A stretch of DNA of 64,000 bases from Rhodocollybia butyracea (Eukaryota > Basidiomycota > Agaricomycetes > Agaricales > Omphalotaceae). This document shows, one piece after another, positions 6,201 through 56,087 of the stretch (positions are counted from its first letter, which is position 1; each line of letters starts with the position of its first letter). The notes beneath the pieces were generated by a model that saw only the letters and a program-made list of their open reading frames with translations, was not told where the DNA came from and made no database searches. The stretch lies in NCBI GenBank assembly GCA_015501585.1, contig JADNRY010000055.1, positions 124,001-188,000 of the forward strand, written 5' to 3'. Position numbers and translations under genes: made by a program.

Positions 6201-6486
6201 TTTCGTATGTCAAACAAGCCAGCAAGATGATTTTATAGTTGCGAGCTTGACATTATTCGTGCTTCTTACGCGGGTCATCTCACCAATGGCATTCTAGACA
6301 TATGTTGCAATGCCAATAAAGCCGAAAACGCAACAGAGCGCAACCTATATCCGGGATTGCGAACATCAACGGTTTAATTTAAGGCTGAAGACGAATCATC
6401 AGGTGATCGCTGAGTACCCCGTGTTAGACGGAGAGGAGACTCAGTCTGGGAAATAGGAGGTTAGGCCGAAAGCACCCGAAAGCATT
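6201..6486. promoter_or_regulatory. Divergent promoter of the dioxygenase and NmrA-like genes
   Basis: 286 bases separate the two start codons of head-to-head genes, so both promoters must lie here or overlap. No clear TATA box or named operator is visible. Shared control of the two genes is possible but is inference from spacing alone. Confidence 0.5.
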
Positions 6487-7522
6487 ATGTCCAGACTTAC
6501 ATCCTTTGCGCTTATCGGCTCCTCCGGATACTTTGGTTCGTTCGTCGTATCAGCCTTTGCCCAGGCGGTTTCGCGCCAACCGACAATCATCGTCCTCTCG
6601 CGTAATCCCGAGTCCAAGAAATATCCCTCTGGAGTGAAGGTCGTGAGAGTGGACGATTACGAAGATGTCGATGCCATTGCGAAGATATTTGTCGAGCATC
6701 AAATCGATGCAGTAGTTTCAACCGTAGGATATGCTGGGATAACAGTGCAAAAGCGGATGGCAGATGCAGCGAAAAAGGCGGGAGTGAAACTGTTTGCTCC
6801 CTCGGAGTTTGGGTCCCCTACCGATGACGCACCGGACGAATATCCAGACTTCCAGGAAAAGGATGAAGTAGCAAGTGAGCCCATGAGCCCTTGCATGTTG
6901 TCCTGTTGGGTACTGAATCTGGGTACGATGCCCCATAGAGTATATCGAAGCAATTGGACTCCCTTGTGCTAGATTTTACGTGAATACTTTTCTCGAGACA
7001 GGGGAATGACTTACTCAGCTTCATTCCAGAACGGGGCGTTCATTAATTCTGGTCTCTTCTCAGTCACGGGTGTTCGTGTAAATGGAAAGGTAAATGTCAT
7101 CGGGAGAGGTCAAAGTCCTGTCTCTTTCACTTTGGAAGAAGATGTGGCAGGTACGCCTCTGATTTGGGTTTCTGTTATTGATTTAACTTGGACTAGGTTT
7201 CGTTGCATATGTTCTCACCTCCTTAACGCTAAACTCTCTGTCTAACAAGATATTCCGACTGGAGGGTGATCGGGCTTCGCTTGTCGAACTGGCAAATTGG
7301 TACGGCAAAGAAGTTTCACACGTTGAAGAAATTCCAGGCCGCCGAGGCCCTTCAGAGATTTTAAGCATGCTTGCTAAGGTGTTCGAAGCTGGGGCTTGCA
7401 GTACGGGATGGAATTTCAAGCTTGGACGCGATGGAGAAGGAGAAGACGCTGCTGGAAGCGCGAATAAAATCTGGCAAGGTCATCAGTGGAAGGCGATCAG
7501 AGATGTGATCATGAAATTATAA
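6487..7522 (+). CDS. NmrA-like / isoflavone reductase-like NAD(P)-binding protein
   Basis: Four exons (6487-6874, 6939-6979, 7030-7150, 7197-7522) give 291 residues, divisible by three. The N-terminus FALIGSSGYFGSFVVSAF carries a Rossmann-type G-x2-G-x2-G pattern. It is followed by VVSTVGYAG, VKLFAPSEFGSPTDD and, across an intron, CARFYNGAFINSG, all typical of the NmrA/isoflavone reductase family (extended short-chain dehydrogenase fold). Family members are NAD(P)H-dependent reductases or redox-sensing regulators; which one applies is unknown. The second exon is only 41 bases and is supported by phase on both sides. The gene is head-to-head with the dioxygenase. It is only distantly similar to the two NmrA-like genes at 23.5 and 28.0 kb. 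Confidence 0.85.
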
Positions 7523-7606: not shown

Positions 7607-8262
7607 TCAAGCGTTCATAACTCGGTAACGTCTGGGGTTTCGTTGTCGGGTAGCGTCCACATTTTCCGCGTGGGCAAGGTGGACCGGGCCAGCTCGATAT
7701 CCATTGCTCGCCGAATGAGTGTGGTCAGAGGAGTTAGAGTAGACCTGTGGCTTCATCTGGGAACGTTGTCCATGAGGATACCCAGAGCGAGGAATTCGAA
7801 TTGAAGGCTCAGCGACATTCGCCCGAGGACGGCCAGCATAAACGTCTGGGGCTCTAACGACCTTTGCAGCCATACCCTGCACTTGTGCCTCGCGCATCCT
7901 CTGCGTACGAGAGACCTGAGTCCACTTGGGAACATCAGCTCGGACGAAAGGGGGAAACTCCTGGTTAAGGTCCCACTTTTGAGGTTGTGACGGCGAACTA
8001 CCGGGAACGTAGAAAACATTTGGGTTTCGCGCATCAAAAGCTTCGGCTTCCAAAGTGGACACTGAATAAGTGCCTTTATCGCAGCCATGACAAGGGTATT
8101 TTCCGGGAGCGGGTATCGGCGGGTTGGGGAAGCCGCATTTGCGTCGGTTACACTTATGGTGATTAGGAGGCCAGTTGGCTGGGAGTTTGGGCTGGCCAAC
8201 TAGAGGAGAAGATTCAGTATGATGATGGAAGAGGGAGCTGATACAATCTTACAACTGAACAT
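7607..8262 (-). CDS. Unrecognised protein with C-x4-C-x14-C-x2-C motif (paralogue 1)
   Basis: Not a family I can name. The main exon (8199-7607) encodes GQPKLPANWPPNHHKCNRRK, then C, GFPNPPIPAPGKYP and CHGCDKGTYSV, so four cysteines are spaced x4, x14, x2, suggesting a small zinc-binding fold. The rest is Arg/Pro/Ser-rich and looks disordered. A 10-base first exon (8253-8262, ATG TTC AGT T) joined by a 53-base intron (donor GTAAGA, branch-like ACTGA, acceptor CTAG) gives MFSFGQPKLP and 200 residues, divisible by three. A second protein at 50.7-51.8 kb shares the motif, the KLPxxWP lead-in and the same intron place and phase, which is the main evidence that both are real genes. The minus-strand frame at 7753-8199 that begins MASPNSQPTG is a shadow. 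Confidence 0.7.
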
Positions 8263-23536: not shown

Positions 23537-24765
23537 TCACTCGTACACAAAAGTAGGGGGGTTTTGATAAAACTCCTTTGCCAACTCTTCCAACGACGGA
23601 GGTTTGTAGTCAGGATACAGCTTCTTCGCATCTAACGCCCCCTCCTTGACAGCATTCTCTACGGTGTTATAACCACGAACGAACAATGATTTCAAATAAC
23701 CATTGATGATTGCCTGCATACCCTCTAGACCAGTTGCGTTCTCAATATCTTGAGCAGAAACCTGTACGTAATTCACATTAGCTAGAGAGCCGATGACCAC
23801 ACAAAGCTCATCAACACATACCCTCGCATAATCATCAAAATTCTCTCCAGAAACCCTTGTACCCAATTCCCACCCCTCCTCAAGAGTCAACTCCCCATCA
23901 TACGTTTGTACTGTCTTATTCAGGGTTCTTGGATCGATAATAATACGCTTAACAAATTCACTTATACTCTGGAGCGCAATATGTGCAACCTTGACTTTCC
24001 CTGTGCCCAGGAACTCTTTACCGGTTGTCTTGGTTGGAGAAGCTTTGACAGCGTGGGGATAGGGAAACATGTAGTGTGTCCACCCGCCAACTTGGATAAA
24101 CGTGTATGGGACATTGTTCTCGATTATAAAGTCTCGGATGGCGAGTTTCTGTAGGTAAATGGGTATAATTTAGAAAGTGAATGCACAGGAAAGCACTTAC
24201 ACGGTCTTGCATGAAGAATACTCCACGAGGTATCTGAGGACCAAAGTCACTTGGCACAAAGCGTTTGACACCAGCCCTTTTTGCGGCGAGTATAAGGGGC
24301 TTCTGGTCAACCAAAGGGGGCACGGTGGAGATTACGGTATCAATATCCCGGAGTGCCTTATCTAAATCTTCTGGCATACTGGTGACAATGTCACCAGGGA
24401 TGATCTCGACTCCTAAGGCTTCAAGTTCTTTGGTTTCGGGTTTAGATAGAGACGAAGGACGGATAAGAGCCTTCACTGTCTGTGTATCGGTGGTTAGCGA
24501 ACTCTGGCGGTAAAGCGAGAGGTAAACTCACAAATTGCTCAGAGCGAACTAAGGCTTTTGCGATCATCCTACCGGTGTATCCGGTCACTCCAACTTGCAG
24601 GACAGTTTTTTTCGAAGGCATTGTGATAGTCTGAGGTAGGCAGTTGAATAGGGTTGAAATAACAAATATTTTGGTGATATACGTCTTATATAGTCATCGA
24701 ACTCCGTGAACTCGGAAGTCGGAAATCATCATTGAAGTACTTACATAGCGGAGTGGACTGTACTT
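23330..24765. repeat. Duplicated segment, copy A (NmrA-like gene with flanks)
   Basis: Near-identical to 27540-29262 on the same strand. Shared landmarks are 'cggcaggcaaggagc' and 'cctagagtcgttcccca' (3' flank), the entire gene, and 'gtcatcgaactccgtgaactcgga' to 'catagcggagtggactgtac' (5' flank). The match stops sharply at about 24765/29262. Copy B has roughly 270 extra bases in its 3' flank (about 27655-27930). Confidence 0.85.
23537..24621 (-). CDS. NmrA-like NAD(P)-binding protein, copy A
   Basis: Four exons (24621-24532, 24479-24201, 24148-23822, 23761-23537) total 921 bases, 306 residues. It starts MPSKKTVLQVGVTGYTGRMI with the G-x2-G-x2-G dinucleotide-binding loop, then VISTVPPLVDQKPLILAA, AGVKRFVPSDFGPQIPRG, YTFIQVGGWTHYMFPYP and the C-terminal SLEELAKEFYQNPPTFVYE. 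This is the isoflavone-reductase-like branch of the NmrA family: NAD(P)H-dependent reductases of small aromatic or secondary-metabolite substrates, or redox sensors. The substrate is unknown. Intron positions are identical to those in copy B. Confidence 0.9.
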
Positions 24766-27539: not shown

Positions 27540-29262
27540 CGATGATCCAAGTTCTGATTAGGTGTCGGCAGGCAAGGAGCGGACTCATATCATTCATATC
27601 ACTCCTAGAGTCGTTCCCCAATCTCAAATCGCTGATATAGTACCAGAACAGAACAGTTTTCCAGTTTAGGTCTCAAACACTGAGATTCAGAGCTTTAATG
27701 ACTTAATTTAGTTGATTTTGTTTTCAATTGGGCACTGTCAAGACGAGAATACCTGTGCGAACAAATAGTACTACTTGCACGAGATAAGATGAAAGAGGAC
27801 TTGGTAGGAGCCTCCTGCGCCATACTAATAGCTTTTCCTCTATATGCACATGTCCGTATGGATCATCAGTGTATAACGAGTCTGCCTAGGGGAGACTAAG
27901 CTTTTCCACCACAAATGTATAGACCAGAATATCACCTTTGAGGGTGCTCAAGTTAGTGAGTACTTAAGTGAGTTTCAACTGGAGTATTTTTATGATCAAC
28001 CATACATATAATTAAATATACACAAAATCCCCTCACTCGTACACAAAAGTAGGGGGATTTTTATAAAACTCCTTTGCCAACTCTTCCAACGACGGAGGTT
28101 TGTAGTCAGGATACAGCTTCTTCGCATCTAACGCCCCCTCCTTGACAGAATTCTCCACGGTGTTATAACCACGAATGAACAATGATTTCGTATAACCATT
28201 GATGATTGCCTGCGTACCCTCTAGACCAATTGCGTTCTCAATATCTTGAGCAGAAACCTATACGTAATTCACATTAGCCAGATAGCCGACGGCACCCGCA
28301 CAAAAGCTCATTAGGCAAACACATACCCTCGCATAATCCTCAAAATTCTCTCCAGAAACCCTTGTACCTAATTCCCACCCTTCCTCAAGAGTCAACTCCC
28401 CATCATACGTTTGTACTGTCTTATTCAGGGTCCTTGGATCGATAATAATACGCTTAACGAATTCACTTATACTCTGGAGCGCAATATGTGCAACCTTGAC
28501 TTTCCCTGTGCCCAGGAACTCTTTACCGGTTGTCTCGGTCGGGGAAGCTTTGACAGCGTGGGGATAGGGGAACATGTAGTTTGTCCACCAGCCGACTTGA
28601 ATAAACGTGTATGGGACGTTGTTCTCGATTATAAAGTCTCGGATGGCGAGTTTCTGTAGGTAAATGAATACAATTCAAAGAGTGAATGCGCGGGAAAGCA
28701 CTTACACGGTCTTGCATGGCGAATACCCCACGAGGGATCTGTGGCCCAAAGTCACTTGGCACGAAGCGTTTGACACCAGCCCTTTTTGCAGCGAGTATAA
28801 GGGGCTTCTGGTCGACAAAAGGGAGCACGGTGGAGATTACGGTATCAATATCCCGGAGTGCCTTATCTAAATCTTCTGGCGTACTGGTGACAATGTCACC
28901 AGGGATGATCTCGACTCCTAAGGCTTCAAGTTCTTTGGTTTCGGGTTTAGATAGAGATGAAGGACGGATAAGAGCCTTCACTGTCTGTGTATCGGTGGTC
29001 AGCGTACTCTGGCAGCAAAGGTGAGAGGTAAACTCACGAATTGCTCGGAGTTAACTAAGGCTTTTGCGATCATCCTACCGGTGTATCCGGTCGCTCCAAC
29101 TTGCAGGACAGTTTGTTTCGAAGGCATTATGAGAGTCTTCGGAGGTAGGCAGTAGAGTAGCAAAGATTTTGGTGATATAGGTCTTAAATAGTCATCGAAC
29201 TCCGTGAACTCGGAAATCGGAAATCATTATTGAAGTACTTACATAGCGGAGTGGACTGTACA
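27540..29262. repeat. Duplicated segment, copy B (NmrA-like gene with flanks)
   Basis: The second copy of the segment at 23330-24765, same orientation. It begins 'ttctgattaggtgtcggcaggcaaggagc' and ends 'catagcggagtggactgtac'. Directly after it RAI1 fragment 2 starts, without the 1.46-kb interval seen in unit A. Confidence 0.85.
28033..29127 (-). CDS. NmrA-like NAD(P)-binding protein, copy B
   Basis: Four exons (29127-29038, 28984-28706, 28653-28327, 28257-28033) total 921 bases, 306 residues, the same as copy A exon by exon. It starts MPSKQTVLQVGATGYTGRMI. The last intron is longer than in copy A, with an acceptor GTATAG in place of GTACAG; both are valid. Differences from copy A include IGLEGTQAIINGYTKSLF and FYKNPPTFVYE at the C-terminus. 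No frame break was found, so both copies look functional. Same family role as copy A. Confidence 0.9.
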
Positions 29263-44210: not shown

Positions 44211-44443
44211 TGTGCCGTGCCTTTGTGGATATACTTACTAACTCGCTGGATTAATGGACAATGTACAGACTTTTGGATTCTAATTTAATCATGCCTTATC
44301 GTCTCACGTTCAAGAATACCTGCACTTTCATTAGAGCTCACTTTCTCTTGACGTCAGTATTTTGAGAGAGACTCCAACGCTGTGTTCTCACATAGTTCGT
44401 ATAAGATTAGTACGTCGCGCATTCTTTCTCTTTAATGTTAACC
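44211..44443. promoter_or_regulatory. SEC9 3' flank and promoter of esterase 1
   Basis: 233 bases. A TATAAG-type element (44398-44403, 'cgtataagatt') sits about 40 bases before the esterase start and is kept in the second copy (48065-48070, 'catataagaga'). Confidence 0.4.
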
Positions 44444-46801
44444 ATGGTTCAGTTACGCCTCATTCTTTTCGGAATACTCTGCAGACTCGTTGAATCTCAA
44501 TCTTCTGCATCGCTTGATGTCTCTTTAACCTCTGGCCGTTACTCTGGTGTCACAGTACCTGCGAATGGAACAGACAAATGGTTGGGCATACGATATGCGA
44601 CTCCACCCGTCGGTAATCTTCGGTTCAAAGCCCCTTCACCTATCACCAAGCCAAGTAGCACTCTTCAAGATGCCTCAAATTTCGGAAACGCTTGTCCTCA
44701 ACGACCATCGACAACCTTAGGAGCACCGATGAGTGAAGACTGTCTTTTTCTTAACGTGCAATTTTCTGTTTGTTCGAGGTACTATATCGGTTTATGGATG
44801 TTTTTCTCAGGTCTGGAGACCTCAAAACACTAGCTCGAATGCAGGACTTCCCGTCTTGGTCTGGATACATGTGAGTAACACGCAATTCTATTTTACGTCT
44901 ACTTAATATTCGACATAGGGAGGAGCTTATACTGACGGGTGTGCCCCATAATCCATAGAAACCTATCCGTGTACTGATAGGCTCGTTTATGTGCAGTGCC
45001 GCTTCCGACCCTCAATATGATCCTACTCGTGCGTATATATTTCGTGCAACACATTTGATTTCAAGCTAATAGACTGACAGGAATAATCAACCGGAGTGTT
45101 GAAGTCGGCCAACCTATCGTTTTCGTTTCGATGTAACAATATGTGCTGAGTTCTGAGTACTTCTCTGACTTGACCTTGTTAGAAACTACCGGATCAACAC
45201 CTTCGGATTCGTAAGTATTTCCTAAACAGGTTTACTCTGAGTGTAAGTAATTTCCTTTGTAGCTTTCCAGTTCGCTGGTCGCACCTGAGGATCTCAACGC
45301 TGGTCTGCTCGACCAACGCACGGCCTTTGAGTTCGTTCAAGACAATATTGCTGCATTTGGAGGAGATCCAAACAAAGTAAGCTTCTCACATGTTACTGGT
45401 TCCATTCGTTACTTATTCAAATGAAGGTTACGATTTGGGGCCAGGTAGGGGCTTGTTCATTTTGTTTATTTCACGACTTACGAGCTCGGTTCTATTATTA
45501 GTCCGCTGGAGCAGGAAGTGTTGAAGCACACATTTTGTATCCGGCAAATCGAACGCTCTTTAGAGCTGGTATGGCTGACTCTTCAGTTGGACCATTGTAT
45601 GTCTCGCTCCATTAGTTATCGCTATGTCTCACCGTCAGTGCAGCAAAAGCTCCCCTCCTGCAGCTACTTATGATAAACCTGGTCTACCCTTCAGCCGTCT
45701 TCTTGAAGCCACCGGATGCACTTTTGGTCCTGAAGCAATCACATGCTTGCAAAGTGTACCGTTCGAGGTAAGCAATAAGATCGATTGGAAGGGCGTGTCT
45801 TGAGCAATGATTTATAGACTTTTCTAAATATCAGTAACACATTGATTAGCGAGGCGCTGAATGGTCAACTATGGCAGCCTTCCATTGGGCCACCGGGAAG
45901 TTTTGCTGATGCTCAAGGATCGACCAAGATTCAGAACAAAGACTTCCTTCATGTGCCCTACCTCGCTGGAACTAATGTAAGATTATCTAAGAACTACTTA
46001 GTGCACGATGGGCCACTATTTTTTACATAGGTCAACGAAGGGACCATATTTAGCAACTCTATTTTGGGTCTGAATCTCACAGGCATTGCGCAAGACGACG
46101 CCTTCGTGAACTTTATAGGCCACCTCGTTATTGACAACAGCACCTTGACCGACGACGTCTACGATGATATCCTCAACATATGGCCAGCAAACGATCCACT
46201 TTTGGGAGCGCCTTTTAATACGGGAGACTCATTGTTTGACCGTGGGGAGGCTTGGTATACCGACGAGATGTTTTTGGCACCCAGACGACTATTCTTCGAA
46301 AATGCTGCTCCCTTGCAACCAATGTTTGCGTACTATTTCCGAGAATTCTACCCGGGAGATAACTTTACTTTTGGAGGTAAGTATCTTTAACTCGAAAAAT
46401 CTTCCCAAACTAATCCGTCCGTAAAGTGGCGCACGCATCGGAACTACTTGTACTCTTTGGGCAAGTACCAGATCCCGCCATCGAAACTGATTTTGCCAAT
46501 GAAATGCTCGGTTTCTACCTGAACTTTATCTACAATATGGATCCTGGACGTCAGCTCCTTCATCCAATACGCTCTGATTATGCCAGTGACTGATATTGAC
46601 ATAGAACCATGGCCAAGGTATACAGCAGAATCGAAAAGTGTAATGCAATTGATGCGAGACAACATCACCGTGATTCCGGACAGTGTGTATCGCAACTCTT
46701 TTCAGACTAGCTTACACTGATGAATCCTCTCCTTAGACTGGGACATTGACAAAACCGATTTTTTGCTCAGACAGAAAGTTCTCAATGAATTCCAGAAGTA
46801 A
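44444..46801 (+). CDS. Secreted type B carboxylesterase/lipase, copy 1
   Basis: Starts [19 protein letters not shown], a signal peptide; an ATG three codons earlier is not kept in copy 2, so 44444 is preferred. Esterase landmarks follow: [42 protein letters not shown] (oxyanion hole), [43 protein letters not shown] with the catalytic Ser at the start of the exon after the intron, NVNEGTIF (likely catalytic Glu), [16 protein letters not shown] and [12 protein letters not shown] (catalytic His). Many short introns. It hydrolyses esters outside the cell; the substrate is unknown. One donor near the C-terminus is GTCAGC, weaker than the GTAAGT in copy 2, but the frame is kept and the end LNEFQK matches. 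Confidence 0.9.
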
Positions 46802-48135
46802 ATTGTTGGTTCTTACTGGCATTAGTTGATTCGTGAATATGATCTTTGTTGTCGTCTTCTTTTCAGTGTGAAATAAAGGTCGGATAAGCCACATACAGCT
46901 GAATCAGCGAAAAGTGTGCAACTCCAAAAGCCGACCAAGAATAGCCCAGAATATGCACCGTTTGGGAAGAGCCAGGACCTGCGAGGACTTTGAGCTTGTC
47001 TTTCTAGATCTGATTTAGCAGCATAATCCGGCCCATCACTGTCCGGATTGTAACCTCGGTTTGAAGCTGGAGAACGGATTTGAGTGGGGCAGGGTGGTAC
47101 GATGCCAACGACAGTAAGCATCGGCCTGTGCATGGTTATGATCTCCACTAACTTTGTTCAGCGGTGCGAACTTATGGTAGACGACACTTATCACAACCGA
47201 CACAGATAAAAGTCTCTTCACAGGTTGGGGCCGCTGTTGGATAGGTGCAGTTACCCTTAGTCTACCTGAAGGATTTGACGGAGAAGCAGCGAAGAGTTGG
47301 ATGATGGGCTATGGAAACCTGCCGCTGGATGACTAATAAGTTTAAAGCTTTAGGTCATGAGTGAGGAATTGAATTCGCAAAATCGTAGGATTGATAACAC
47401 TGCAAGCAAGACCGACGTGTCGACGTGTGGTTAGTGCGGAGCGAGTACAAGAAATCCCCAGAAGTATCCAAATCTTATCCGCATTAGTCCCCTGCTTCGT
47501 TCTAGCCGACATTCATTTTCTCCCTTTATAAAAAAAGAACATATGAATAGTGTGCTTTTATCGATATAATAGCTACTCACAGCTACTCACCCGCTGAATT
47601 AATGCATCATGGGATTGGCTACTGGGCTCCTGATTTCAGAACGCACGGCAATGAAGCCATTGGGAGCATCTTGCTCAGGCTTTTGTTCCAAGAAAATGCA
47701 GTGTCTATGGTACTGACATCGAGAGATACTTGGAACATGACTTGGAGGTATTAATAAATGTATACAAAGAGTCCCAGCTCACTGGCATGAGGGGAGGGTC
47801 AGGGAGGGCCTCCGTCGGGATGAAACGGCGGTATGTAACGCGGATCGCCTTTCTCGTACCATGGAGAATAAATTGCTCATGTTCACGGAATTAGGCAAAC
47901 GGCAGTAATTACTATATCCCTTTTCCTCTCACGTTTGGCCATACTTACAAGTATCTGCACTCTCATTCAAAGATCTCGCTTTCTTTTGATGTCCCTAGTA
48001 CTTCGAGAGGACGGTCAGCTGCTTCCGGGGTAAAGACTTCGTCCCTGTCTTCTCACATGGTTCATATAAGAGAATGAGCGCGTCGTGCATTCTCTTCGAA
48101 TTCTCTCCGGATCCCTAGAACCACTGACGTTAATC
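46802..48135. other. Interval between esterase copies, with a SEC9 remnant
   Basis: No gene. Minus-strand frames at 46822-47221 have no motif. The piece at 47340-47600 is a decayed copy of the SEC9 3' end, and the last 200 bases are a copy of the esterase 1 promoter. Confidence 0.5.
47340..47600 (+). pseudogene. SEC9 3'-end remnant
   Basis: 'aaagctttaggtcatgagtg' and 'gaattcgcaaaatcgtagga' match SEC9 44031-44084. The Sec9 frame is lost within about 100 bases, at 'accgacgtgtcgacgtgtgg'. The following 150 bases match the SEC9 3' flank weakly ('aatagtgtgc', 'cgctgaattaatg'). Confidence 0.8.
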
Positions 48136-50526
48136 ATGGTTCAGTTACGCCTCATTCTATTCGGTTTCTTCTTTAGACTCGTTCAATCTCAATCTTCTGC
48201 ATCCCTGGATGTCTCTTTAACGTCCGGCCGTTACTCTGGCGTCGCAACTGCGAATGGAACAGACAAATGGTTAGGTATACGATACGCGACTCCACCTATC
48301 GGTAACCTTCGGTTCAAAGCCCCTTCACCTATCGCCAAGCCAAGTAGCACTCTCCAAGATGCCACGACTTTTGGAAATGCTTGCCCTCAGCCACCATCGA
48401 CTGGCTTAGGAGCGCCGTTGAGTGAAGATTGTCTTTTCCTGAATGTACAGCCATTTGCGTTTGCCAGCTGTTAGATTCGCTCACTGGTGACATTCTCAGG
48501 TCTGGAGACCCACAAACACTAGCGTGAACGCGAAACTTCCTGTTTTAGTCTGGATACATGTGAGTAACCGTCCGTTATTCCCCTGAAATACACCTACCTG
48601 ATATCCTTCGCAGGGAGGAGCTTATACTAACGGGTAGATTTACCACCATTTAGAGATTTTATCTGATGTACACTGATGGATTCGATAGCGCTGCTTCTGA
48701 TCCTCAATATGATCCCACTCGTATGCTTATATTTCATATATTTCGTGACGTTTGATCCAATCTAACTGGCTAACAGGGATTGTCACTCGAAGCGCCGACG
48801 TTGGCCAACCAATCGTTTTCGTTTCAATGTATAAATCTCTACTCCATTCGAAGTACTTCTCTTTAACTTGACCTCGCTAGAAACTACCGTGTCAACACCT
48901 TCGGATTCGTAAGTATTGTTCAGAAACAGATTTACGAGTCTGTATGCAATTCACTTGCTCTGTAGCTTTCGAGTTCGCTAGTCGCACCTGCAGATCTCAA
49001 TGCTGGATTGCTCGACCAACGCATGGCCTTTGAGTTCGTCCAAGACAATATTGCCGCATTTGGTGGAGATCCAAGCAAAGTAAACTTCCCACTTGCCATT
49101 ACTAGTTTCACTCGTTACTCACCGCAACGACGTAGGTCACAATTTGGGGCCAGGTATGAGCTTGTTTATTTTGTTGATCTCCCGGCTTACAGTAACCTTC
49201 ATTCTGATATCAGTCTGCTGGAGCAGGAAGCGTTGAATCACATCTTTTGTATCCGGCAAACCGATCTCTGTTTAGAGCTGCCATAGCTGACTCTTCAACT
49301 GGACCATTGTAAGGCTTGCCTCGTAAATTTAGCGCTATGTCTCACTGTCGATAATTACAGTAAAAGCTCCCCTCCTGCAGCTACTTATGATAAACCTGGT
49401 AAACCCTTCAGCCGTCTTCTTGAAGCCACTGGATGCACTTTCGGTCGTAAAGCAATCGCATGCTTGCAAAGTGTACCATTCGAGGTGAGTTAATACCGAT
49501 TGGGATGGTATGTGTCTCCAATAAAAATTTGTAGACTTTACTAAATATTAGTAACGCGATGATTGGGGCGACATTGAACTCACAACTATGGCAGCCTTCT
49601 ATTGGACCGCCGGGGAGTTTCGCTGATGCTCGAGCATCGACCAAGATTCAGAACAGGAACTTCCTTCATGTACCCTACCTCGGAGGAACTAATGTAGGTT
49701 TATTGAAAAAGGCATTCATAGTGCGCTGACGGGTCACTACTTTTGACAAAGGTTAATGAAGGAGCAACATTCAGCGAGTCTGTGTTGGGTCTGAATCTCG
49801 AAGGTATCACACAAGACGAGGCCTTCGTGAACTTCATAGGCCACCTTGTTATCGACAACAGCACCTTGACCAACGACGTCTATGATAAAACCCTCGAATT
49901 GTGGCCAGCAAATGATCCGCTTCTAGGCGCACCTTTCAATACAGGGGACTCATTGTTTGACCGTGCGGAAGCGTGGTATACTGACGCAATGTTCTTGTCC
50001 TCCCGACGACTATTTTTCGAAAACGCTGCTGCTTTGCAGCCAATGTTTGCGTACTATTTCCGTGAATTCTACCCTGGAGACAACGTCACCCTTGGAGGTA
50101 CACGAATATCTTAAACTTGAAATCCCGCACTAATCTCCCGTTCATGAAGTGTATCACGCGTCAGAACTACTTGTGCTCTTTGGTCCAGTACCAGATCCCA
50201 CCATCGAAACTGATTTCGCCAACCAAATGCTTGGTTTCTACCTGAACTTCATCTACAATTTGGATCCTGGACGTAAGTTCGCACTATTAATTACACTTTA
50301 ATCGTCCCAAATGATTAATCATTGATATAGGACAATGGCCAAGGTATACAACAGAATCGAAGAGTGTCATGCAATTGATGCGTGACAATATCACTGCGAT
50401 TCCGGATAGTATGTATTGCACCCATTTCCAATCAGTTGATGATGATGAATCTGCTCCTTAGATTGGGACACTGACAAGACTAATTTTTTGCTCACACAAC
50501 AAGTTCTCAACGAATTCCAGAAATGA
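48136..50526 (+). CDS. Secreted type B carboxylesterase/lipase, copy 2
   Basis: Starts [19 protein letters not shown] (signal peptide). It matches copy 1 along its whole length, with the same introns: [67 protein letters not shown] (catalytic Ser), [16 protein letters not shown] (Glu), [11 protein letters not shown] (His), ending LNEFQK. It lacks two residues (VP) near position 37 compared with copy 1. No frame break was found when the introns are removed. Protein differences are spread along the gene, so the two may differ in specificity. Confidence 0.9.
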
Positions 50527-50726: not shown

Positions 50727-51779
50727 CTAAACAGGGCCATTTGCATCCACTCGACGCGGCATATAGCTCCTCAGTTCCAATTGTGCCTTCGAGGCGTAAT
50801 ACTCGGCGTCGTCGACGACGGCTACTGGAACCTCCGACTCCCATGAAGCCTGGGAATAGATCGAAAGCGAAGCAGTAGTAGGCGGGCGAAGGGGTCTTAC
50901 TGGTTTCTGAGAGCGATCTGTGGGGACAGGGGCAACGGAACTAGTACTTCCTTCTTCCTTCTTGGGTTTGGGCTTGGAGTGTATAGGACAGTTCCGAGAG
51001 CACAAGAAAGGATCGTGGCGACGAGGAGGACGGACGGGAGGGGTTTCGAAAAAAGGTCGAGGTTTGCGTAAGAGAGGATCTCCAGCGTCTTCAGCCCAAT
51101 TCGGATTATACGTGTTGGGATTGTAAACTCGTTCCGGAGTCCTCCCCGTCCATTTTTGCAACACGCCCTGAAGAGAGGATTTGCCTGGGTTAGGGGTAGA
51201 GTACGATTCCACATATGGATGCAAGTACGTGGATTTGGGCGGTTTCGGTTTACTCCTAGACAACGTACGCGTGCGGGGCTGAGGGCTGACCACTTCCGGA
51301 GCATGTCTAATCGCAAGAGTATTCTTCTTGGGAGGTTGAGCAGCTGGAGGTAGAGGTCCTTTGGTCCCCAATCGACGTTCCAAAGAGGAACTGGGGCGAT
51401 CGGGCCATTTCTCCCTTCGCTCATCCGGCTTCGTTTCGTTCTCATAACGAGCGAAATCGCGCTCTGCCCTTCGACGCTCATTTGTTGTTTGGATAGTGTG
51501 GAATTTCCGACGATTTCGGTCGTGGAATTCGATAGCACGACGACAGTGCTCGTCGGCTTCTGCCGCCATTTTCTTGGTCACAACGTAGTTACCCTGACCA
51601 CACCCCACGCAGATAAAAGTGCCCTGCACTGGCTGAGGTAGGTTGGGATAGATACAGTCGCCGTTGCTGCATTTGTTGTGAAGGGGTGATGGCCAGTCTA
51701 TGGGAAGCTTGGATTTACCAACTAGGGGATACAGAATCAGGGCGTTATGCAGCAAAGACCAACAAAGTTGAACATACAT
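50727..51779 (-). CDS. Unrecognised protein with C-x4-C-x14-C-x2-C motif (paralogue 2)
   Basis: The main exon (51721-50727) starts GKSKLPIDWPSPLHNKCSNG, then DC, IYPNLPQPVQGTFI and CVGCGQGNYVV: four cysteines spaced x4, x14, x2, as in paralogue 1 at 7.6-8.3 kb. A charged helical stretch follows (AIEFHDRNRRKFHTIQTTNE, RRRAERDFARYENETKPDER), then Pro/Arg-rich disordered sequence and a second Cys/His group, DPFLCSRNCPIHSK. A 16-base first exon (51779-51764) and a 42-base intron (donor GTTGGT, acceptor CCTAG) give MYVQLFGKSKLP and 336 residues, divisible by three. The intron is shorter than usual. Alternatively the frame is read straight through from an upstream ATG at about 51893-51895. Function unknown. 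Confidence 0.7.
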   Translation of the reverse strand: MYVQLCWSLLHNALILYPLVGKSKLPIDWPSPLHNKCSNGDCIYPNLPQPVQGTFICVGCGQGNYVVTKKMAAEADEHCRRAIEFHDRNRRKFHTIQTTNERRRAERDFARYENETKPDERREKWPDRPSSSLERRLGTKGPLPPAAQPPKKNTLAIRHAPEVVSPQPRTRTLSRSKPKPPKSTYLHPYVESYSTPNPGKSSLQGVLQKWTGRTPERVYNPNTYNPNWAEDAGDPLLRKPRPFFETPPVRPPRRHDPFLCSRNCPIHSKPKPKKEEGSTSSVAPVPTDRSQKPVRPLRPPTTASLSIYSQASWESEVPVAVVDDAEYYASKAQLELRSYMPRRVDANGPV

Positions 51780-52769
51780 TTCATACTTGGAATACAGGTC
51801 TAGAGAAGAAGGAGTGTTAAGGTGGCAGCACCAGGACGCCCGCCTATGAGGGCTTAAAGAAGGTGGAAATAGAAAGTTATGGGCTATCAATGACTCCATT
51901 GAATTTATAGGTAGGACAAAGGCGGCCAAGGGTCTTTTGCTTATAGCTTTGATTGTTTTTTTTTCCCTTTTTGGAAGTGGACAATGGCCGGTTTTGGTCT
52001 TTTGTTTTCCTTATTTGGGTTTGCCGATAGATAGACAATTCATTTGGATCAATTATTTCTCAGATTTTACCTGCAGCTATGGGGGAAAGCACGCAAGTGC
52101 ACTCGAGAGCTCAAGATGTCGGATAGTGCCGAAATTGAATATCATTGTGCTGAGCGCGGAAGGATAAGCGCTCATCTCCGGCACCGGTCATTTCCTGTTT
52201 ACTGCTTCAAGTCATATGAAAGAATGCTATAAAATTACATCTATAATTGTAGTATTGTGTTGAACGAAGTAAAAAGGGAAAACGACTTGAGCATTCCGCG
52301 AGCTTCGATCACAATGCAGTGCGCAAATTGAAGGAAGCTTGACAATGAAGTAATGAATGTTCGGGAATGGTGAGACTGTAAAAGTAAACATGACTTGGTA
52401 AATGTACACAGACAGCAGTTGGGGTGATGCGAACGGAGAGGACGATTAATAGTGACAGAGGTACGTGGCGTGGTGGTGAGTGGACGTGGAAGGCGAAGGT
52501 GGAATAAGGGGGGTTAGTTAATCAGGTGCGTATGGTGTAAGGGTATTGTTAATGGGACGTAGAGTAACGATAATGGAAGAACGAGCATAAGACGGCATCG
52601 GACGAAGGAGGATCTGTAAAAATCTATGTGACATGTAGAACACGACAATCAGAAGGGAACTATCCCAACTTTAAAATTTTGAAGAGCTTTGTCGTTGGCC
52701 GGCTGATGGCTCAGTCTATTGGCTAGGCCTAGCAGGAGCGGCTGTGAGGCAGAGCGTGTAATGTGGCGG
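51780..52769. other. Intergenic region between paralogue 2 and the Nudix gene
   Basis: About 1 kb with no supported gene. The plus-strand frames at 51937-52232 are short and lack motifs. It should contain the promoter of paralogue 2 and the 3' flank of the Nudix gene. Confidence 0.45.
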
Positions 52770-54166: not shown

Positions 54167-56087
54167 TCACGCAACGAAGAACATGCAGGCTACACCAAAG
54201 AACATCGCCGCAAACTGTGCATGACTGAAATAAGTATTTGAAAATCCATAACTGGCTAGGACATGCCTCTCGCAAGGCTTGCTTCCCGGATTTGCTTTCG
54301 GCGAGGAGGGTTGGAAGGACCGCAACGGCACCAATGTAAAGAAAGCCACCTGCAACGAATGGTATGACCTAGAAGTCTTGTAAGCTTTCAATTCAAGATG
54401 CGGCGATATTTCCGAGTGGGAAGGGGACCAGAAGATAAGCACTTACCAGGTCCGCAATCTGCAAAGTGGTTCCCAGAAGACCGCTAGCATCTTGTCGTAT
54501 GCCCCCAGCAAAATCCAAAACGTGGACGGTTTCCGCTAAAGACGATGTGGCGTTGCGGACCGCGATACCAATGAAAGTGCTGTTTGAGTGGTGGGAGAGT
54601 CAACATACGGCGGTTAACGGAGGATAGCATGAACAGGTAAAAAATGGATATCGGTAGAAGATGCAGGGTCAAAAGGAAGAGGACATACCCAACCTGCTCC
54701 GATTGGGAGGAGTAAAAACAAACGTGCAGTAAAGTGTCAATTAAACCTAAGAAGCAATAGCCGGTACGAAGAAAACTCACGAATGCACCAATGGCGGTTA
54801 TAAACTGAGACTGCATTGCCTGCTGTTTGGTAAACCCGCTTCGGATTAAGATGGAGTAGTCCGCGATTTCATGCGGAATCTCATGAGCGAAGCAAGCGAG
54901 TGTAGTGGTAGCCCCGATGAGAGGAGACGCATAGAATGAGGCGGCCATTCTTATATCGCGTAAATAAAATGGTTTTTATGACGATTAATTTCAGAGTAAC
55001 AATAAAGTAAATCCCACATACGCCAATCCGTCGGTCACCTGCGATATGCATTTCATCAGATCTGGAGAAGCATAGAGTGCGATTGAGATTACTGACGTTG
55101 TGCGTAAAATCTGCAAAGAGATTGAGATAAGCTGACAGTTTGGAGGGTCCGCTAGGGGAAGTATGCAAAGGCTCTGAGCCGGCATTTGCACCGTTAGTAG
55201 TAGACGATCCGGTTTTGGTTCTAGATTTGAGTGTCTCTTGTGAAGATCGGGCAGTAGTCTTGGCTTCTACGGCTGGGCTGTGGGAATGAGAATGACCTGC
55301 CGAGCCTTCTCCAGATTCCGCGCCGAGGACGCGCAAGGTCTTTTCCATAAAAAAGAATGCCGCAAATCCTACAAATATCCCTAGCCTGAAAATACTCTTT
55401 AGTTGATACCGCTGAATAAAGAAACATTAAGGAACGAACCCTGTCAGTATGTTCCTCTTTTCTTCAACCATGATGAAATTTACTCCGGAGTCTTGGTGCT
55501 CTCCCATGAACGAATGAGGCACAAGATGTAAAAACACATCAGACAATAGACCACCTGTCTATAGAGAAATTCAGATATCAGTTCCATCAAAGAAGTCGAA
55601 GAGAGCTCACCGCAAATGCTGTCATGGTGTTGAGAGTATCACCATTTATTTTGGCAGGGATAAACGCGAGAATAAAGTTGGGGACTCTTCATTGTGCGGA
55701 GTTAGTTGAGATTAAAGATACCGTGATTAATGAGAATTATGAGGTTCAAGCAGCTCGAAACAGAGATAACGACGTACGAACTGATGTAGAAGGTACCCAG
55801 GATGGAATTCCAGGCTGGGCCAAAGGGAAAGAGCCAGGCGAAGACTGTTCTCATGATAGGAGACTCTGCGGCTTCCAATTCTAACTTGAGAGCGTCCAGC
55901 TGTTGTACGGGTAGGCATTGTTTGATATCGTCATTCTGCACATGCCAAAAAAAACTGGCTTAGAAACGAAAAGATGTATACATTTCGCAAGCCTTACAGT
56001 GATATTCAAGGAAGGCTTGGATGCGGTTGTCCATAGTAAAGCCAAAAGACAGACGAGGAGCAAAGATCGACGCTGGGTAGCCGGCAT
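54167..56087 (-). CDS. YKE4: ZIP-family zinc transporter, YKE4/ZIP7 type
   Basis: Starts MPATQRRSLLLVCLLALLWT, a signal sequence. After an intron come NDDIKQCLPVQQLDALKLE and SPIMRTVFAWLFPFGPAWNS, then LNTMTAF, VFLHLVPHSFMGEHQDS, NILTGLGIFVGFAAFFFMEK, a His-rich loop (AGHSHSHSPAVEAK) and the core ACFAHEIPHEIADYSILIRS, with metal-binding HEIPHE in a membrane helix, then GFTKQQAMQSQFITAIGAF. The last exon ends FAAMFFGVACMFFVA. This pattern fits the LIV-1/KE4 branch, which moves zinc from the ER/Golgi to the cytosol. About eight exons; not all limits were fixed. An upstream Met at 56177 in frame would place the signal sequence inside the protein, so it is not used. Confidence 0.88.

Follow-up and report, generated by a model that had tools for sequence, protein, structure and literature searches.

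The question raised by this locus is what kind of proteins are encoded by two genes of Rhodocollybia butyracea, g1 and g2, which lie in one 64,000-nucleotide stretch of its genome (the window) and which the first-pass annotation had described as a paralogous pair with shared cysteine motifs, fully diverged tails and a tiny first exon. The features to which the text refers are as follows.

g1, whole gene: 7607-8262, minus strand
g1 exon 1, coding part: 8253..8262, minus strand, 10 bases, ATGTTCAGTT, as in the deposited model P0008
g1 intron: 8200..8252, minus strand, 53 bases, GTAAGA...CTGAA...CTAG, unchanged in the second haplotype copy (L002)
g1 exon 2, including the stop codon: 7607..8199, minus strand
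g1 four-Cys domain: 8060..8188, minus strand, KLPANWP to YSV, residues 8-50, delimited by alignment, Cys pattern and pLDDT
g2, whole gene, preferred model: 50727-51784, minus strand
g2 exon 1, coding part: 51778..51784, minus strand, 7 bases, ATGAAAT, preferred model, fitting the deposited MKFGK and MLFGK
g2 intron, preferred model: 51722..51777, minus strand, 56 bases, GTATGT...CTGAT...CTAG, with a 1-base difference in the haplotype copy (L005)
g2 exon 2, including the stop codon: 50727..51721, minus strand
g2 four-Cys domain: 51579..51710, minus strand, KLPIDWP to YVV, delimited by alignment, Cys pattern and structure model
g2 second Cys/His motif: 50976..51002, minus strand, CSRNCPIHS; C-x3-C-P-I-H-S is present in 6/6 g2-type proteins

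When spliced with the 10-base exon, g1 gives 603 bases encoding 200 amino acids, beginning MFSFGQPKLPANWPPNHHKC, and this product is the R. butyracea protein BDP27DRAFT_757033 (P0008), i.e. g1 itself, deposited as a 'hypothetical protein' (100% identity over 100% of the length); the product of the preferred g2 model has 333 amino acids and starts with MKFGKSKLP. The relationship of the two genes holds up, as the shared motifs are present and the second exons align with a local score of 130, the best of 2000 shuffles reaching 79. This signal is confined to about 50 N-terminal residues. The tails alone score 37, a value equalled by 537 of 1000 shuffles and hence no better than chance, and they are thus unrelated between the two genes, in agreement with the divergence described earlier. 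In a six-frame search of the species' own genome (95.6 Mb) with g1 residues 1-70, g2 was recovered with an E value of 2.9e-9, and the sequence searches of the R. butyracea genome revealed no further clear paralogue. A candidate third copy on contig C1050 (E 0.109) is a 70-amino-acid frame lacking the Cys pattern and was judged to be a chance match; contig C207 gave a weak match only (E 2.23). Each gene is present twice in this genome, viz. on contig C883 and on one short contig (C139 or C1159), with protein identity of 97-98%, and the two copies are read, from their sequences, as two haplotypes. The allelic differences comprise four substitutions in g1 (two silent, two changing) and four in g2 (2 + 2 under the 16-base exon model discussed below, with one becoming intronic under the 7-base model), which are too few substitutions to test for selection.

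The homologues on whose existence outside this genome the first-pass annotation had made the family depend were found in several genera of the Agaricales and Polyporales. The searches yielded 7, 4 and 22 proteins (overlapping sets, the window's own proteins included), together P0001-P0024, and those from outside R. butyracea include members from Lentinula, Gymnopus, Collybiopsis, Cyathus, Pluteus and Infundibulicybe as well as from two polypore genera, Panus and Antrodiella. Taxonomy look-ups place R. butyracea, C. confluens and L. raphanica in Omphalotaceae, Cyathus in Nidulariaceae, and Panus and Antrodiella in Polyporales, so that the six species checked cover Agaricales and Polyporales. 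The pattern C-x4-C-x14-C-x(2 or 7-9)-C-x(1-2)-G-x-[YF] is present in 22 of the 24 proteins, and the two that it misses (P0006 and P0024) both lack the N-terminal part. It forms the core of a longer domain consensus, [KR]xP-x2-WP-x-LHxKC-x4-C-x2-PNxP-x4-G-x-Y-x-C-x(2 or 7-9)-C-x(1-2)-G-x-Y-x-[VI], and in 9 of the 22 proteins there is no Cys beyond these four. The loop between the third and fourth Cys is 2 residues long in 16 of the 22 proteins, viz. 15 from Rhodocollybia, Lentinula, Gymnopus and Collybiopsis plus P0009, and 7-9 residues long in the other six, which include those of Cyathus, Panus, Antrodiella, Infundibulicybe and Pluteus. The conserved small four-Cys fold that had been proposed is thus matched by a Cys order fixed in 22 of 24 proteins. 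Scans of 2, 10 and 9 proteins (overlapping sets) found no Pfam or NCBIfam entry for the family; a viral collection gave 10 pattern matches and the prokaryote genomes searched with P0003 gave 29, with no relatives in either. The orthologues of g1 or g2 in Gymnopus androsaceus (BT96DRAFT_361679), Collybiopsis confluens (D9757_002514 and D9757_002520) and Lentinula lateritia (NXY57DRAFT_448650) are all deposited as 'hypothetical protein'. Literature searches with the motif WPSPLHNKC, with six locus names of the family and with DUF4246 plus basidiomycete returned nothing, and the titles and opening lines of abstracts in broader listings mention no such four-Cys family. The family is genuine, unnamed and of an ordinary kind, and new to the libraries scanned. 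One member, P0019 of Panus rudis, begins with MGCTSSK (residues 1-7), which is absent from the other members and which we take to resemble an N-myristoylation/palmitoylation signal.

In a tree computed from the domain region of 21 proteins (all but P0006, P0009 and P0024), the g1-type proteins, the g2-type proteins and the rest are each separated by one branch, with supports of 89/91, 91/92 and 95/86, where the tool's star falls on 1 of 18 inner branches and the branches of g1 and g2 are drawn open. The tree rests on the alignment as MAFFT produced it, the script-set Cys register being used for printing alone; in alignment A3, MAFFT had placed the fourth Cys of the long-loop and short-loop proteins in different columns. 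Since the short loop is common to the g1 and g2 types, the loss of the loop would precede the duplication, and the simplest order of events would be loop loss, then duplication, then the split of the Omphalotaceae genera. With regard to linkage, g1 and g2 are both on contig C883; the C. confluens pair has neighbouring locus tags (D9757_002514 and D9757_002520), and the two proteins of L. raphanica, and likewise the two of L. aciculospora, come from contigs of equal size. The two L. lateritia proteins come from differing contigs and tag series and are thus uninformative on linkage either way. Judged from these sequences and records, g1 and g2 are old duplicates that have stayed linked. Within the g1-type and within the g2-type alignments, however, the tails are conserved from one orthologue to the next; among the g1-type tails, [WC]DL[NS]xEFP is found in 6/9 and a C-terminal [RK]x[YF]RV[VM]N in 8/9. 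The window also holds other local repeats, viz. NmrA-like frames at 6457-7522, 24021-24527 and 28526-29050 and carboxylesterase starts at two places (44411-44830 and 48070-48471), due to which this region seems to be rich in nearby duplicates.

Of the tiny first exon, the g1 part stands, whereas the length proposed for g2 does not. In both genes the acceptor CTAG precedes TTGG and the junction is in phase 1 (T|TTGG), and this is true of either g2 model. For g1, two of four ATG/GT pairs keep the Cys frame, one with a 7-base exon (MFIGQ) and one with a 10-base exon (MFSFGQ); the latter, with donor GTAAGA, is the deposited model, and MFxFG is found in all nine g1-type proteins reaching that point, a count that omits the incomplete P0009 and P0024. 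For g2, every ATG/GT pair that would leave an intron of 40-100 bases ahead of the unchanged acceptor was considered; of the eight such pairs, two are open across the initial 150 bases of exon 2. The 16-base exon put forward earlier has the donor GTTGGT, with its junction at 51763/51764, and gives MYVQLFGKSKLP; the 7-base exon, ATGAAAT joined to TTGGTAAATCC, has the donor GTATGT and gives MKFGKSKLP. Three of the six g2-type database proteins begin with M-x-F-G-K, viz. MKFGK in L. raphanica and MLFGK in L. lateritia and C. confluens, and the ATG of the 7-base exon has A at position -3, where that of the 16-base exon has T. The donor GTATGT agrees with the usual fungal donor, and by eye it is also seen in the gene for ribosomal protein eL43 of this genome. 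Because of these orthologues, the donor and the A at -3, the 7-base exon is preferred; the 16-base exon, which is probably wrong, was dropped. In the other three g2-type models (P0001, P0002 and P0005), LVGK corresponds to translated CTAGTTGG, which indicates that they read through the end of the intron, and the L. aciculospora gene would, from its sequence, have a 54-base intron following a 7-base coding exon. We infer that splicing at these sites also takes place in vivo. The first exon of an mRNA also contains the 5' UTR, and thus the splicing machinery need not cope with a micro-exon: exon 1 of both genes is tiny in its coding part alone, and it is no true micro-exon. With intron read-through in 3/6 g2-type models, these genes show how annotation is misled when the 5' coding exon is very short. 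Micro-exons with a function have been published for fungi (PMC11121469, PMC12940212).

The fold prediction that had been called for as a check gives a beta hairpin plus a helix over the four-Cys domain, predicted with confidence by AlphaFold. For g1, the mean pLDDT values of successive blocks are 91, 93 and 94 over residues 21-50 and 89 in the next, so that residues 21-60 are covered, with strands at 36-39 and 47-50, a helix at 52-61 and the remainder mostly disordered (overall mean pLDDT 62.1, pTM 0.35). The g2 model, made with the 350-amino-acid read-through form, has strands at 53-56 and 64-67 and then a 56-residue helix (69-124; overall mean 61.3, pTM 0.35). The structure prediction that was given alignment A3 used it as it stood. 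Searches of solved folds with the g1 and g2 models gave no PDB match with a meaningful score, and the term zinc-ribbon-like is used here as a description, based on the Cys pattern and the predicted secondary structure. As the four Cys form two pairs, the proteins look intracellular and the hairpin is compact and confidently predicted, the domain probably holds one structural zinc ion.

Other interpretations of the four cysteines need to be considered. If they form two disulfides, then the products could be small secreted proteins similar to fungal Cys-rich effectors, and the family is indeed small, four-Cys and limited in lineage, while the read-through models P0001 and P0005 open with a hydrophobic stretch. 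However, this stretch in P0001 is translated intron, and the spliced N-termini of g1 (MFSFGQPKLP) and g2 (MKFGKSKLP) show by eye neither a hydrophobic nor a signal-like stretch; we consider secretion unlikely. It has likewise to be asked whether the zinc domain serves catalysis or DNA binding within a larger enzyme, as P0020 of Antrodiella citrinella carries DUF4246 (PF14033, 207.1 bits, E 6.3e-61) at residues 1-145 and the four-Cys domain at about 215-290. This arrangement is seen in only 1/24 proteins, from a homologue search whose length filter would exclude longer fusions, and the P0020 model begins inside DUF4246 and may represent two merged genes; we consider such a role quite improbable. 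A real fusion in P0020 would hint at a partner of the family, whereas a merged gene model would not. That g1 and g2 are non-functional, viz. decaying duplicates which are open by chance, could be argued from the second g2 copy (L005, on contig C1159), which has three one-base deletions relative to the window copy and an open frame of 264 vs 427. However, by eye its flank also contains more one-base differences, and the deletions may thus be assembly errors, C1159 being probably an unpolished haplotype contig; with the domain and tail motifs kept by orthologues across genera, decay is hardly credible.

A likeness, although not a significant one, exists to ribosomal protein eL43 (L37ae, PF01780), from which a derived relative acting on ribosomes or RNA could be envisaged. 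Both have their four Cys arranged as two pairs, with an inner spacing of 14 residues and with GxYxVS following the second pair; with the whole-family profile, 7 of 8 PDB matches are eL43-type chains (E 0.028 to 1.5), and hhalign of A3 against the eL43 of this genome, which is encoded on contigs C123 and C794, gives an E value of 0.008 at a probability of just 4.9%. However, the first Cys pair is spaced x4 in the family vs x2 in eL43, and eL43 is without WPxxLHxKC and PNxPQ. Further, with the short-loop domain profile eL43 appears at E 0.16 among 36 matches mixed with killer-cell receptors; it is absent from the three matches of the long-loop domain profile (six proteins), and PF01780 was not matched in any of the scans of 2, 10 and 9 proteins. 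As the likeness sits in the derived short loop, it points to chance or convergence, and it was not accepted as evidence of homology, since the matches weaken once the domain is profiled by itself and separately for the two loop types; the derivation from eL43 is accordingly very improbable. The zf-Mss51 domain (PF13824) matched the Cys domain of P0015 weakly (E 0.14), its 12.8 bits falling short of the cut-off of 27, and did so in one of nine proteins scanned.

The reading that we prefer is that g1 and g2 are linked old duplicates within one gene family of mushroom-forming fungi, with each product predicted to be soluble and intracellular. In the N-terminal domain of about 45 residues, the four cysteines would coordinate a single structural zinc ion within a zinc-ribbon-like hairpin, and this family-wide zinc site is rather likely to be real. 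After the domain, g2 would form a long charged helix, and both proteins would continue into a disordered tail, whose short motifs, shared by the respective orthologues, suggest partner binding. The zinc module would bind a protein or nucleic-acid partner and the tail would recruit others, an adaptor role that we regard as possible but doubtful. A pair of ZIP zinc transporter-like frames, with E values of 1.7e-8 and 2.9e-7 (each just below the Pfam cut-off), lies at window positions 54487-55426, about 3 kb upstream of g2, and its proximity is probably a coincidence. The fuller account, viz. a new zinc-binding family in which the loop was shortened from 7-9 to 2 residues in Omphalotaceae, followed by a nearby duplication whose copies retained both zinc module and 5' intron and acquired unrelated motif tails, one of them with a second possible metal site (C-x3-C-x2-H), is offered tentatively, at a little under an even chance. 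On this basis, two hypothetical proteins become members of a family that spans two orders of Agaricomycetes, lacks a Pfam or NCBIfam entry and has a testable metal site. In addition, the lineage-specific change in the C3-C4 loop, together with the retained linked duplication, would provide a compact case of a metal site tolerating the loss of a loop.
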